A stretch of DNA of 30,539 nucleotides from a virus, in the IMG/VR virus record IMGVR_UViG_3300045283_000072, positions 1 through 30,539 of that record; one strand, 5' to 3'. Each line of letters opens with the position of its first letter. Positions within the stretch are counted from its first letter, which is position 1. The translations under genes and the position numbers were made by a program. Of this stretch, positions 4,599-30,539 are shown piece by piece. The notes below the pieces were generated by a model that was given only the letters and a program-made list of their open reading frames with translations, searched no databases and was not told the DNA's origin.

Positions 4599-5198
4599 AT
4601 GGACGCTAGCGGCATTGACGCGCGAGGGATCCGGCGGAAAACTAGCCGCGTGCCTCCGTTGTCTCAGCAGGAACGAACGCGCGTCGGCCGGCTGTTGCAA
4701 CGCCTGCGCGACGACCAAACGCAAGAACAGATCGCCGACAAGCTTGGGTGTGCCATCGGCACCGTACAGGCCATCGAATACAACAAACACAAAGTGGACC
4801 GCGACACGATTGAGCAGTACGCCGCGCTGTTCAACACCACGACGCAACAACTGTTGCATCCCGAATCCCCGGCGATCGCCGCGTCGGATCCGTTGGTCGC
4901 CGACCTGAATCATGAGCATCTCAAGATCGCGCGGCGGTACATGCGCGCGGTCGATGCCGTTCGGGAAGCCGTCAAATTGTTGTTGACCGACAACGATGTC
5001 AGCGCGGAGGAGGTCGCCGGGATCGTGGTGGGGTTGAAGCAGGCGAGCGAGGCCTCGCCCGAGGACGGCCTCGCCTGGATCCATATCGTGATGCACCGCG
5101 CCGACCTCGTCCAGGATCTCGCCCACCGCCTCGACACCGATCCCGGCTTTGAAGCCAAGCTGCTCGAGCTCCTCAACCTCCCGAAAGGCCAGAAATGA
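4599..5198 (+). CDS. XRE-family repressor, CI-like
   Basis: An XRE helix-turn-helix occupies the N-terminal third, from LSQQERTRVGRLLQRLRDDQ through TQEQIADKLGCAIGTVQAIEY to LFNTTTQQLL. The remainder is an alpha-helical, acidic domain ending NLPKGQK with no LexA-like Ser/Lys protease motif visible. Induction by RecA-stimulated self-cleavage is therefore unlikely. An in-frame GTG at 4569 would lengthen the protein by ten residues, but it lies upstream of the TATAAT box at 4574-4579, so ATG 4599 is preferred. The gene overlaps the integrase by four bases (ATGA), so repressor and integrase would be co-expressed. Its opposite neighbour is the Cro-like gene. Confidence 0.85.
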   Translation: MDASGIDARGIRRKTSRVPPLSQQERTRVGRLLQRLRDDQTQEQIADKLGCAIGTVQAIEYNKHKVDRDTIEQYAALFNTTTQQLLHPESPAIAASDPLVADLNHEHLKIARRYMRAVDAVREAVKLLLTDNDVSAEEVAGIVVGLKQASEASPEDGLAWIHIVMHRADLVQDLAHRLDTDPGFEAKLLELLNLPKGQK

Positions 5199-6436
5199 AA
5201 CGACGGACGAAGATCGCCCCCGGCATCTACCAGGACGCGCACGGCTATAGCGTGATTGCGCGCGTGGGCAGCGGCGATCGTGAGTTGAGCAGTCCCGAAC
5301 TCCGGTTCCCACTCACGGAGAAGATCGCCACGATGCAGGCCGCGTGGCATCGCGAGAAAATGAAACTGCGGGACAGCCTCGCCAAGGCCGGCGATGGCCC
5401 CGTCGTGCGCGGCACGCTGGCCGCGGACGTCCGCCACTATCTCGAGACGGCGAAACTCACGCCACAGCGGTATGCCGAGCGGAAGGATCAACTCGCTTGG
5501 TGGTGTGACGCGTTCGGCACGAGACGGCGCGCCGAGCTCGAGGCGCCCGACTTACGGCGCGCCTTGAACGGCCTAGAGCGCGGCGGCCGATCCGGCAAGT
5601 CGCCGATGGCGGCGTCGACCGTCAACAAGTACCGTTTTGCGTTGTCGCACGTCTTCACGGTCCTGGACGGCCAGGCCGCGGCAAATCCGTTGCGCGACGT
5701 GCCGAAGTACACGGAACCCGATCCCGAGGCGCGTGACGTCCCGTACGAAATCATCGATCGGATCATCGACGAGATCCGCGATCGCGGCCAAGGCCTCTCG
5801 GTGTCACGCACCAAGGCGATCGTCCGTGTCCTGGCCTACTGCCCGGTGACGCCGGCGCAATTGCGCCGCATGCGGCGCTCGGACGTCTCTCTGCACGCCG
5901 GCGCGTCTGGCGAGATCGTCACGCCCGGCCGCAAGAAAGGCCGCGGCACGACGCCGAAACGCAAACCCCTCTCCGCGAAAGGCCGCGAGGCGTTGCTCGC
6001 CTTCGAGGCCGCAGAGTGCTGGACGCCAGACGGCACCTCGGTGCAGTTTTCGCGATCCTCGCTGTACCGGACGTTCACCGATGCCCGAGATCGTGTCGTC
6101 GCCGTGCTGCGCGTCGAGCGGCCGGATCTCGATCTCTCGCGCGTGGCACAGATGCGCCCGTATGACCTGCGCCACAGCTTCGCGACCTTGGCGTCGATCG
6201 TCTTGAACGGCAACGAGGCCGTGGTCGGCGAATTCCTTGATCACCAGGATCCACGCACGACGAAACGCTATACCCGCGGCGCGTTACCCGATCACATGCG
6301 GGCGGCCGGCGACGCGATCGCCGCCGCCTTTGCGATGCCCCACCATCCGGCGACGGCCTTGCCACCCACCCCGCCCGTCCTGCCGCCCACGGTCCAGGCG
6401 GCGGCGCCACGCCTCCGCAAGAAGTCCCACAAATGA
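5195..6436 (+). CDS. Tyrosine-type phage integrase
   Basis: This 413-residue protein is a site-specific recombinase. It has an N-terminal AP2-like arm-binding region, a SAM-like core-binding domain (about 70-170) and a C-terminal catalytic domain. Visible catalytic elements are the basic KKGRGTTPKRKPL segment (about 247-259), YDLRH (323-327, Arg326), LDH (His350) and the nucleophile Tyr359 in TTKRYT. The first catalytic Arg, usually in a GxR-type motif, is not at its place: by eye that site reads CPVTPAQLRRM (216-226), with Thr219 in its stead. The gene ends 28 bases before the first arm-type repeat of attP, so it would act at the adjacent tRNA-Arg site. It overlaps the repressor gene by four bases. 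Confidence 0.95.
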   Translation: MKRRTKIAPGIYQDAHGYSVIARVGSGDRELSSPELRFPLTEKIATMQAAWHREKMKLRDSLAKAGDGPVVRGTLAADVRHYLETAKLTPQRYAERKDQLAWWCDAFGTRRRAELEAPDLRRALNGLERGGRSGKSPMAASTVNKYRFALSHVFTVLDGQAAANPLRDVPKYTEPDPEARDVPYEIIDRIIDEIRDRGQGLSVSRTKAIVRVLAYCPVTPAQLRRMRRSDVSLHAGASGEIVTPGRKKGRGTTPKRKPLSAKGREALLAFEAAECWTPDGTSVQFSRSSLYRTFTDARDRVVAVLRVERPDLDLSRVAQMRPYDLRHSFATLASIVLNGNEAVVGEFLDHQDPRTTKRYTRGALPDHMRAAGDAIAAAFAMPHHPATALPPTPPVLPPTVQAAAPRLRKKSHK

Positions 6437-29193: not shown

Positions 29194-29495
29194 CAGCCCT
29201 CCTCTCCGGGGTCACGATCGCCGGCGGCGCGCATCCGCCAGTCGGCGAGCGTCGTACGAAATGGCAGGACGGGCGCGACTCGCCGTAGCGGCGTCGGCGT
29301 GATCGTGGTCGATCGCTCAATCAGCGCGGGCAAATCAGGCGGCGCAGGACCATTGCACCGATCGCAGCGCCAGCAATGGATCGGTTTCCCGCCGAGGAAC
29401 ACAAACTCGATCTCGAGGATCGGATCGCCGCGGTGGAGTTCGCGGTTGCATCCGCCGCATAGCGTCGGCACGGTGACGCGCCGCCAGGTCCTCAT
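29193..29495 (-). CDS. Zinc-ribbon-like protein, 100 aa
   Basis: ATG 29495 overlaps the upstream stop (ATGA), and I prefer it to an extended frame that begins near 29792. The protein has CGGCNREL (residues 13-20) and CWRCDRC (41-47), which can bind zinc. The rest is Pro/Thr/Arg-rich, with LPALIERSTTITPTPLRRVA then ADWRMRAAGDRDPGEEG. No specific family is recognised. Confidence 0.72.
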   Translation of the reverse strand: MRTWRRVTVPTLCGGCNRELHRGDPILEIEFVFLGGKPIHCWRCDRCNGPAPPDLPALIERSTTITPTPLRRVAPVLPFRTTLADWRMRAAGDRDPGEEG

Positions 29496-29998
29496 AGCTG
29501 AATCCCGAGGCGCTCGAGGATCGCCGCGGCCTCGGCATGCGAAAAGGCGTGAGACGACTGAGTCGACACTCGTGATAGGCCTGAGAGGCCTGGTAGCGGC
29601 GTGTTCGAGGCGATCAGTCGATAAGCGCCGTTGAGGTCTTCGTTGGTCCACGGAATGTGTAGGCGAGCGCACCGGAACTTGAGCGCGTCCGTGAGATCGG
29701 CCAGTGAGTCGAAGTGTTCCGACGCCAACAATGAGCGCACGAGCCGCGCGAGCAGGCGCACGTGGTGCTCGTCGTGGTTGAGGTTTTTCCACATGTGGAC
29801 GGTTCGCGCGTTTTCGCGCGAGGTTCTAATTGGTGGTACTAAGACGGACGGTACGAACGCACAGAGACGGGCCCTGGTCCCGGTACGGGATGGGTACGGG
29901 ATCGCGGGCGCGCGCGCGCGCGCGAGACGTGGAATCCGCGCGGACTCCGCGTGGAATCCACACGGAATTGTCGACGGAAGCAAGGCGGGTGCCGTCAT
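29492..29998 (-). CDS. Early protein next to the iteron region, 168 or 100 aa
   Basis: Two starts are possible. ATG 29998 overlaps the preceding gene (ATGA) and gives 168 residues, but the first ~68 are low-complexity, Arg/Pro-rich and lie over the 11-bp repeats. ATG 29792 gives 100 residues that look like real protein: MWKNLNHDEHHVRLLARLVR, SLLASEHFDSLADLTDALKF, then helices up to AAAILERLGIQL. I think the short form is more likely, with the upstream part being regulatory DNA. It has no ribosome site, but a palindrome tccacatgtgga spans its start. The function is unknown; a helical regulator or replication factor fits. Confidence 0.6.
   Translation of the reverse strand: MTAPALLPSTIPCGFHAESARIPRLARARAPAIPYPSRTGTRARLCAFVPSVLVPPIRTSRENARTVHMWKNLNHDEHHVRLLARLVRSLLASEHFDSLADLTDALKFRCARLHIPWTNEDLNGAYRLIASNTPLPGLSGLSRVSTQSSHAFSHAEAAAILERLGIQL
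29788..29820. promoter_or_regulatory. Palindrome and hairpin before the short start at 29792
   Basis: A perfect 12-bp palindrome, tccacatgtgga, spans 29788-29799 and contains the ATG at 29792. A hairpin cgcgcg-tttt-cgcgcg follows at 29805-29820. Both are consistent with a protein-binding or RNA-structured control element for the next gene. Confidence 0.45.
29881..29961. other. Contiguous 11-bp repeat array, candidate origin or operator
   Basis: Two direct repeats (CGGTACGGGAT at 29881-29891 and GGGTACGGGAT at 29892-29902) adjoin with no gap. A (CG)n tract at about 29907-29924 follows. Then come three contiguous 11-bp dyads: GTGGAATCCGC (29929-29939), GCGGACTCCGC (29940-29950) and GTGGAATCCAC (29951-29961). 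A period of 11 bp is about one helical turn and not a multiple of three, so it is not explained by codon repetition. The gene just upstream encodes a replisome-organiser-type protein, which makes an origin plausible. An operator is the alternative. Confidence 0.6.
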
Positions 29999-30342
29999 GC
30001 CTCCGCCCGTTTTCGCGCGCGATCTTCGCGCCGCTTTTTCTTCACGTCCGCCGCTGACGGGTTGAAGTGATCGAAGTCGTGGATCTGAAAGCCGCTTCCG
30101 CCATTCTTGTCCCAGAGTCCAGCCTTCACGAGCGCGTCAGCGACGGCGGCCGGATTCGCAACATGACGAAAACTTCTCACCACGGCCATCGGCAAAAACC
30201 CATCCGTTAAATGTTTGTTCGCCCACATCAGGCCGACCGCGTAGAACCCGAGCGCAATCGCCGGCCCGTTCTTGCCGATCACTTCCCCGGCCGCGAAGAG
30301 CTTGGCGTGATCGATCAGTTCGTCATCGAGCCGGGACCACAT
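29995..30342 (-). CDS. Replisome-organiser-type winged-helix protein, short form, 115 aa
   Basis: ATG 30342 begins MWSRLDDELIDHAKLFAAGE. The body has IALGFYAVGLMWANKHLTDG, FLPMAVVRSFRHVANPAAVA and a C-terminal GFQIHDFDHFNPSAADVKKK, the pattern of the winged-helix domain at the N-terminus of phage replication-initiation proteins. Those are normally longer, with a helicase-loading part. Here the protein stops after a basic RREDRARKRAEA tail. It may be a minimal initiator or a transcription factor. It ends at the iteron array and lies eight bases after the junction gene. Confidence 0.8.
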   Translation of the reverse strand: MWSRLDDELIDHAKLFAAGEVIGKNGPAIALGFYAVGLMWANKHLTDGFLPMAVVRSFRHVANPAAVADALVKAGLWDKNGGSGFQIHDFDHFNPSAADVKKKRREDRARKRAEA

Positions 30343-30349
30343 CGCCGCC

Positions 30350-30508
30350 CTACTTGCTGCTGACGGTTTTGAGGCTGGGGCGTTTGGCCACGGCGAGGTC
30401 CGCGGCGCTGCGATGGTTGACGAGCTCCTCCCGCGCGAGCGCGAGCGCGGTGATCTTGTCGTCGAGCGCCTTGATCGCTTTGTCGAGCAGGGTCGGTCGT
30501 GTACTCAT
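30350..30508 (-). CDS. Small helical protein spanning the circular junction, 52 aa
   Basis: ATG 30508 has a nearby AG-rich ribosome site (ggaggg). The protein is MSTRPTLLDKAIKALDDKIT with Ala/Leu/Glu-rich continuation (LALAREELVNHRSAADLAVA) and a basic end RPSLKTVSSK. It looks like one long helix or coiled coil and has no known family. The gene is only complete at this end of the window because of the terminal repeat. It is followed eight bases later by the replisome-organiser-type gene. Confidence 0.72.
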   Translation of the reverse strand: MSTRPTLLDKAIKALDDKITALALAREELVNHRSAADLAVAKRPSLKTVSSK

Positions 30509-30539
30509 GATCCCTCCGAGTTAGTGCCGCGGGTGCTCG
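30385..30539. repeat. Terminal direct repeat, right copy
   Basis: This 155-bp copy matches 1-155, with one difference at 30413 (a, against t at position 29). It should be counted once in the genome length. Gene order continues without break from 1 into this end on the minus strand, which supports circularity of the assembled molecule. Confidence 0.95.

Follow-up and report, generated by a model that had tools for sequence, protein, structure and literature searches.

The window analysed here, that is, the whole stretch of 30,539 bases of a virus record, has 155 bp common to both ends: the terminal direct repeat (1-155 and 30385-30539) shows a single mismatch (T/A, position 29), so that the genome is circular or circularly permuted, with a size of about 30,384 bp. 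The phage genes found in the window code for a terminase, a portal, head and tail proteins, a Sak4-like ATPase, a Dam methylase and an exonuclease VIII, and an integrase gene is located at 5195-6436; the phage is tailed and probably temperate. No near-identical phage DNA was found in GenBank, nor were any close relatives found among bacterial genomes. A search with the initiator provided seven viral contigs, further ones being gathered via a profile.

The initial annotation had placed 11-bp dyads, a CG tract and a second repeat block near 29881-29961, and all these elements are present. They belong to a longer series of features, given below in their 5' to 3' order on the minus strand.

29995-30342, minus strand: putative initiator gene (stop at 29995), 115 aa, winged helix and C-terminal basic helix (KKKRREDRARKR)
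29964-29974, minus strand: degenerate fourth iteron TCGACAATTCC, in register with the array
29931-29963, minus strand: three contiguous 11-bp iterons, hyphenated dyads of the GGANTCC type with 4 bp between them; candidate initiator sites
29963-29953, minus strand: iteron GTGTGGATTCC
29952-29942, minus strand: iteron ACGCGGAGTCC
29941-29931, minus strand: iteron GCGCGGATTCC
29924-29908: alternating CG run of 17 nt, spacer between the iterons and the C-rich tract
29902-29881, minus strand: C-rich tract ATCCCGTACCC-ATCCCGTACCG, i.e. CCCGTA/CCCAT/CCCGTA
29879-29889, minus strand: short CCCG-TAC-CGGG stem where the C-rich tract ends
29830-29822, minus strand: distal element ATTAGAACC, present once in the window, before the next gene
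29820-29805: hairpin CGCGCGAAAACGCGCG, before the next gene
29794-29492, minus strand: downstream gene of about 100 aa, a probable detached C-terminal domain of the initiator

Iterons, CG run and C-rich tract

The three gapless 11-bp dyads reported initially were confirmed as GGANTCC-type sites at 29931-29963 on the minus strand. Three such sites at 11-bp spacing occur once in the window and in none of 300 order-2 Markov sequences, while GGTACGGGAT is the only 10-mer of the window exactly repeated at lag 11 (0.14 expected) and GGAATCCN4GGANTCC, with up to two mismatches, is found in the window only at 29931-29970. At the place of the degenerate iteron, a TTCC half-site is present in the aligned relatives L004-L006.

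Conservation of the 11-bp spacing in related phages had been proposed as a check on the array, and both the repeats and their spacing are indeed retained: GGA/TCC sites lie 11 bp apart, at the same place, in 20/20 relatives having such sites. Among these 20 relatives, GGA or TCC pairs number 34 and 52 at 11 bp, 23 and 30 at 22 bp, and 11 and 16 at 33 bp, vs. 0-3 at the spacings neighbouring 11 bp. The copy number ranges from about 2 to 7 across relatives (L005 and L035 have more copies) and, like the sequences between the sites and the downstream gene, it varies, while the spacing and place of the iterons are constant. Tandem, conserved and regularly spaced repeats, as expected of an iteron origin, are thus found adjoining the initiator gene. 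Concerning the interval between the initiator stop and the iterons, stand-alone relatives (e.g. L006, L007, L024 and L031) have a conserved GGCAC-N(7-8)-TATGCCGTCC element, which is weak in the window (GGCACCCGCCTTGCTTCCGTC, about 29993-29973).

The 17-nt CG run exceeds all others in the window; 60 simulated sequences gave at most 15 nt and, being just above this simulated maximum, the run is only marginally unusual on its own. Runs of at least 9 nt are a feature of almost every stand-alone relative whose iterons are of the GGA type, and are absent from relatives with GCAAA iterons; the CG run, for which a Z-form had been suggested initially, is class-specific.

As for the two 11-bp direct repeats (GGTACGGGATG) described initially, both copies are present, but they are not iterons. 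They are part of a CCCGTA-CCCAT-CCCGTA series on the minus strand and, the middle unit being CCCAT, the period of 11 in this block is 6 + 5, by accident; the 11-bp spacing of the GGTACGGGATG copies is unrelated to the true 11-bp iterons. The counterpart of 29881-29902 is CCCGTACCCGTACC, with 6-bp units, in relatives, and CCCGACCCGACCCGACC, with 5-bp units, in actinophages, and by sequence comparison the block of the window is a mutated version of the tract that its relatives have as (CCCGTA)n or (CCCGA)n. When counted up to 350 nt from the end of the DNA-binding domain in 129 non-redundant relatives, a C-rich tract follows this domain on the coding strand in 83/129, vs. 1.4% of control windows, and on the opposite strand in 1/129. 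Named prophages, a further set almost entirely from Actinomycetota, have it in 51 out of 62 cases.

Across 107 relatives, the folding energy shows a local stem-loop signal at the 3' end of the C tract (mean z of about -1.1, against a background close to 0), and the AT content rises mildly beyond the tract (0.40-0.46 vs. about 0.33 in the background). The AT profile revealed no clear classical AT-rich unwinding element beside the iterons, where the C-rich tract is found instead. Further along, TTAGWRCCNCGC, a longer core of ATTAGAACC, is present once each in L024, L028, L032, L034, L042, L047, L068 and others, at the same place before the next gene, and a stem-loop was seen by eye at the position of the hairpin in many relatives. 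The distal ATTAGAACC and the CG-rich hairpin could either belong to the origin or be associated with a start.

The initiator, its tail motif and the downstream gene

The 115-aa protein matches the replication initiation protein family PHROG 2447 (E 3e-22) over the N-terminal ~108 of 295 positions, and was aligned with 24 relatives. It possesses the homologous N-terminal winged-helix domain of PHROG 2447-type initiators, and is shorter than their single chain of about 295 aa with its C-terminal part. The AlphaFold2 model (pLDDT 88) has wHTH-like elements and a helix at residues 97-114. Fold matches in the PDB were weak (E of at least 0.2), several of them being winged-helix proteins, and no significant relatives were found in Pfam or among solved structures. 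Relatives carry a replication-initiator annotation or classification, with many genes of the family still labelled 'hypothetical protein'.

The initial annotation had described this neighbour as a minimal initiator. The protein is short probably because its C-terminal domain is encoded by the next gene. Compared with the C-terminal domains of fused initiators, the downstream gene gave an hhalign probability of 95% (E 3e-8), vs. 4.6% for the control comparison; as the A7 profile used comprises three sequences only, this match is good, not conclusive. Used alone as a query against viral contigs, the downstream domain gave no match. The downstream frame is open back to 29998, with an ATGA overlap with the initiator gene. 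The comparison suggests that the downstream gene is probably the separated C-terminal domain of the initiator, and the simplest reading of the sequence is an initiator probably split into two genes around the origin.

The basic segment that follows the winged helix, and that is modelled as helical (residues 97-114), carries a tail motif that is paired with the type of iteron: KRxxDRxRK with GGANTCC/GGAC, AGxxG with GCAAAC, RMxxLR with GTTCG and RQxRxR with TAACGG. These four classes were set by eye once the discovery set had been seen, and their scoring was a simple count; tail and iteron agree at 57/63 loci of that set. The rules were fixed before the held-out loci were examined, and agreement there reached 20/20 of the loci with both calls (permutation mean 6.3, maximum 16 in 100,000), followed by 16/21 in a third set, where four of the five misses have, by eye, GAAGCA-type repeats misread by the fixed scoring. 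About half of the loci in the two test sets lie outside the four classes. Kinship is only partly controlled, via pairs with less than 40% domain identity: among these, the iteron class is shared in 32/52 pairs with the same tail class vs. 14/134 with a different one. The basic motif after the winged helix would thus appear to predict the iteron sequence.

The same order of elements is found in actinophages. In those with initiators of 220-330 aa, the iterons and then the C-rich tract are embedded in the initiator gene itself, at the linker that follows the winged helix, as exemplified by L010 and L012-L015; the iterons in this linker are of other sequence and are accompanied by CCCGACCCGACC. 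In Propionibacterium phage B22, a 121-aa initiator is followed by non-coding AAGCAAACGGGT iterons and CCCGTACCCGTACCCGTACCC, which is the stand-alone layout of the window with a different iteron. The putative origin is located between the DNA-binding and C-terminal parts of the initiator, within the gene in fused relatives and, in the window, between the initiator gene and the gene of the probable C-terminal domain. As a whole, the actinophage initiators of PHROG 2447/1882/3926 (B22 gp53, Arthrobacter phage 1191A, Gordonia phage Schmidt) resemble that of the window in their homologous N-terminal domain and in the iterons and C-rich tract directly after it, and differ from it in being mostly fused (220-330 aa) and in having other iterons. 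No origin annotation was found in the initiator regions of the named actinophages examined.

The origin reading and its alternatives

Based on these comparisons, the region is very probably an iteron-type replication origin, with the 115-aa winged-helix protein as its initiator. The initial annotation had hesitated between an origin with its initiator and an unusual cooperative operator; the comparative evidence sides with the origin, with the restriction that only one of the two arrays consists of 11-bp iterons. In the proposed mechanism, the initiator would bind the 11-bp GGANTCC iterons along a single face of the DNA, each helical turn being occupied by one molecule or one dimer, with contacts made by the winged helix as well as by the basic C-terminal helix. 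This nucleoprotein array would then open or mark the C-rich tract and the modestly AT-enriched hairpin stretch beyond, and host DnaB would be recruited to it. No DnaB was found in the window or in 15 relatives, hence the presumed recruitment of the host helicase. The C-terminal part of lambda O has a role in partner binding and, by analogy, the downstream C-terminal-domain protein would be the probable bridge to DnaB. The iterons of such an origin could in addition have an autoregulatory role.

Two other types of signal were considered. The cumulative GC skew, proposed initially as a check, shows no turn at the repeats over the circular 30,384-bp unit and lends the origin no support: its extremes are at 3.7 and 26.1 kb, and its range is not unusual, 38/300 block shuffles being as large. 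The window has one perfect TTWTNCACA DnaA box (29785-29793); since the enrichment of DnaA-box-like sites in relatives is slight (7% vs. 4%), they were not used as origin evidence. At the start of the downstream gene, TTTTCCACATGTGGACGG (29785-29799) forms two overlapping inverted DnaA-box-like sites, which are not clearly conserved.

It is improbable that the repeats are a cooperative operator, through which a winged-helix regulator would act on its own operon or on the downstream gene, in which case there would be no origin. Iterons can serve autoregulation, but the array lies 3' of or inside the initiator gene and not at its promoter, and no sigma-70-like promoter was found in 29700-30539. 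The array does precede the next gene; however, that gene differs between relatives, while the iteron array and the C tract remain. Similarly, the 115-aa protein, taken alone, is without a known helicase-binding domain, yet its relatives are, as stated above, annotated or classified as replication initiators.

Less probable still is a coding by-product, in which the DNA repeats would derive from protein repeats in the N-terminal linker of a 168-aa protein (29492-29998, with the ATGA overlap). In the window, as in L003, L004 and L006, this frame runs uninterrupted through the region, whereas in L025, L026, L028, L032, L037, L041 and L069, which have the same downstream domain, it opens only 113-218 bp after the initiator stop. 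The initial annotation had set aside a coding derivation on the grounds that 11 bp is not a multiple of three, an argument that holds, although the iterons do sit in coding sequence in the relatives with long initiators. In these fused genes each of the three reading frames is represented among the iterons, which indicates that the constraint acts on the DNA, and the coding-repeat reading is largely refuted. A partition (parS-like), packaging or attachment site is equally remote: tandem repeats are typical of parS and the phage is probably temperate with an integrase, but no ParA/ParB was found among the ORFs searched, the terminase and integrase genes are elsewhere, and the conserved linkage is to the initiator domain.

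Known origins and the proposed class

Iteron origins inside or beside initiator genes are already known from lambda and from iteron plasmids. In lambda ori, hyphenated-dyad iterons lie in the middle of the initiator gene O and adjoin a tract of special composition (PMC7466680, PMC6022878, PMC3985674). The likeness is one of layout, the origin being embedded, as here, between two initiator parts; by contrast, the lambda iterons measure 18-19 bp vs. 11 bp in the window, the adjacent tract is a 39-bp AT-rich one vs. the C-rich CCCGTA tract, and O is one gene vs. an initiator probably split in two. The iteron plasmids RK2, F and R6K also share the layout of the window, with tandem initiator sites beside a repeated element; the single-strand element of the plasmids is AT-rich, whereas its putative counterpart in the window is C-rich. 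Rep proteins of iteron plasmids bind one strand of the DUE (PMC4081077). In mycobacteriophage Miko, repA and its flank are sufficient for replication, and its authors suspected an origin within or beside repA and found no repeats (PMC7157519). Miko RepA was considered as an experimental anchor and rejected, having no similarity to the window initiator and a gene without the iteron and C-tract module.

Within the open-access literature searched, no description of the iteron and C-tract signature was found. As far as searched, the new aspects are the presence of this signature in the large actinophage initiator family, with a C-rich tract replacing the AT-rich element, the apparent code linking tail motif and iteron, and the probable splitting of the initiator. 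Well over 100 phages of soil and actinobacteria share the layout, and no description of their origins had apparently been given before. A wider reading can tentatively be put forward, namely a large, previously undescribed class of origins in actinophages, where a winged-helix initiator might read 11-12 bp iterons via an interchangeable basic motif, and where a strand-specific C-rich (CCCGA)n/(CCCGTA)n tract, and not an AT-rich element, might be the single-strand site for opening and helicase loading, the initiator having been split in two genes around the origin in the window lineage.

Few actinobacteriophage origins appear to have been mapped, and iterons with a C-rich tract right after a winged helix provide a two-part signature by which origins can be predicted by inspection. 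With the apparent link between basic motif and iteron, initiator specificity becomes directly testable and, should opening take place at the C-rich tract, the concept of an AT-rich DUE as a requirement of iteron origins would be extended.

Finally, an HNH-nuclease-like segment lies after the winged-helix domain of the initiator in L060, L089, L103 and L107, before or replacing the usual linker. L005, L007, L035, L039, L061 and L065-L067 have, downstream of the origin and in place of the C-terminal domain, a FDRAF-motif protein of about 190 aa, with a conserved GHWAHGEELxRWYxAR near its end and no significant PHROG match (best E 0.029), which is possibly a helicase loader or an alternative partner.
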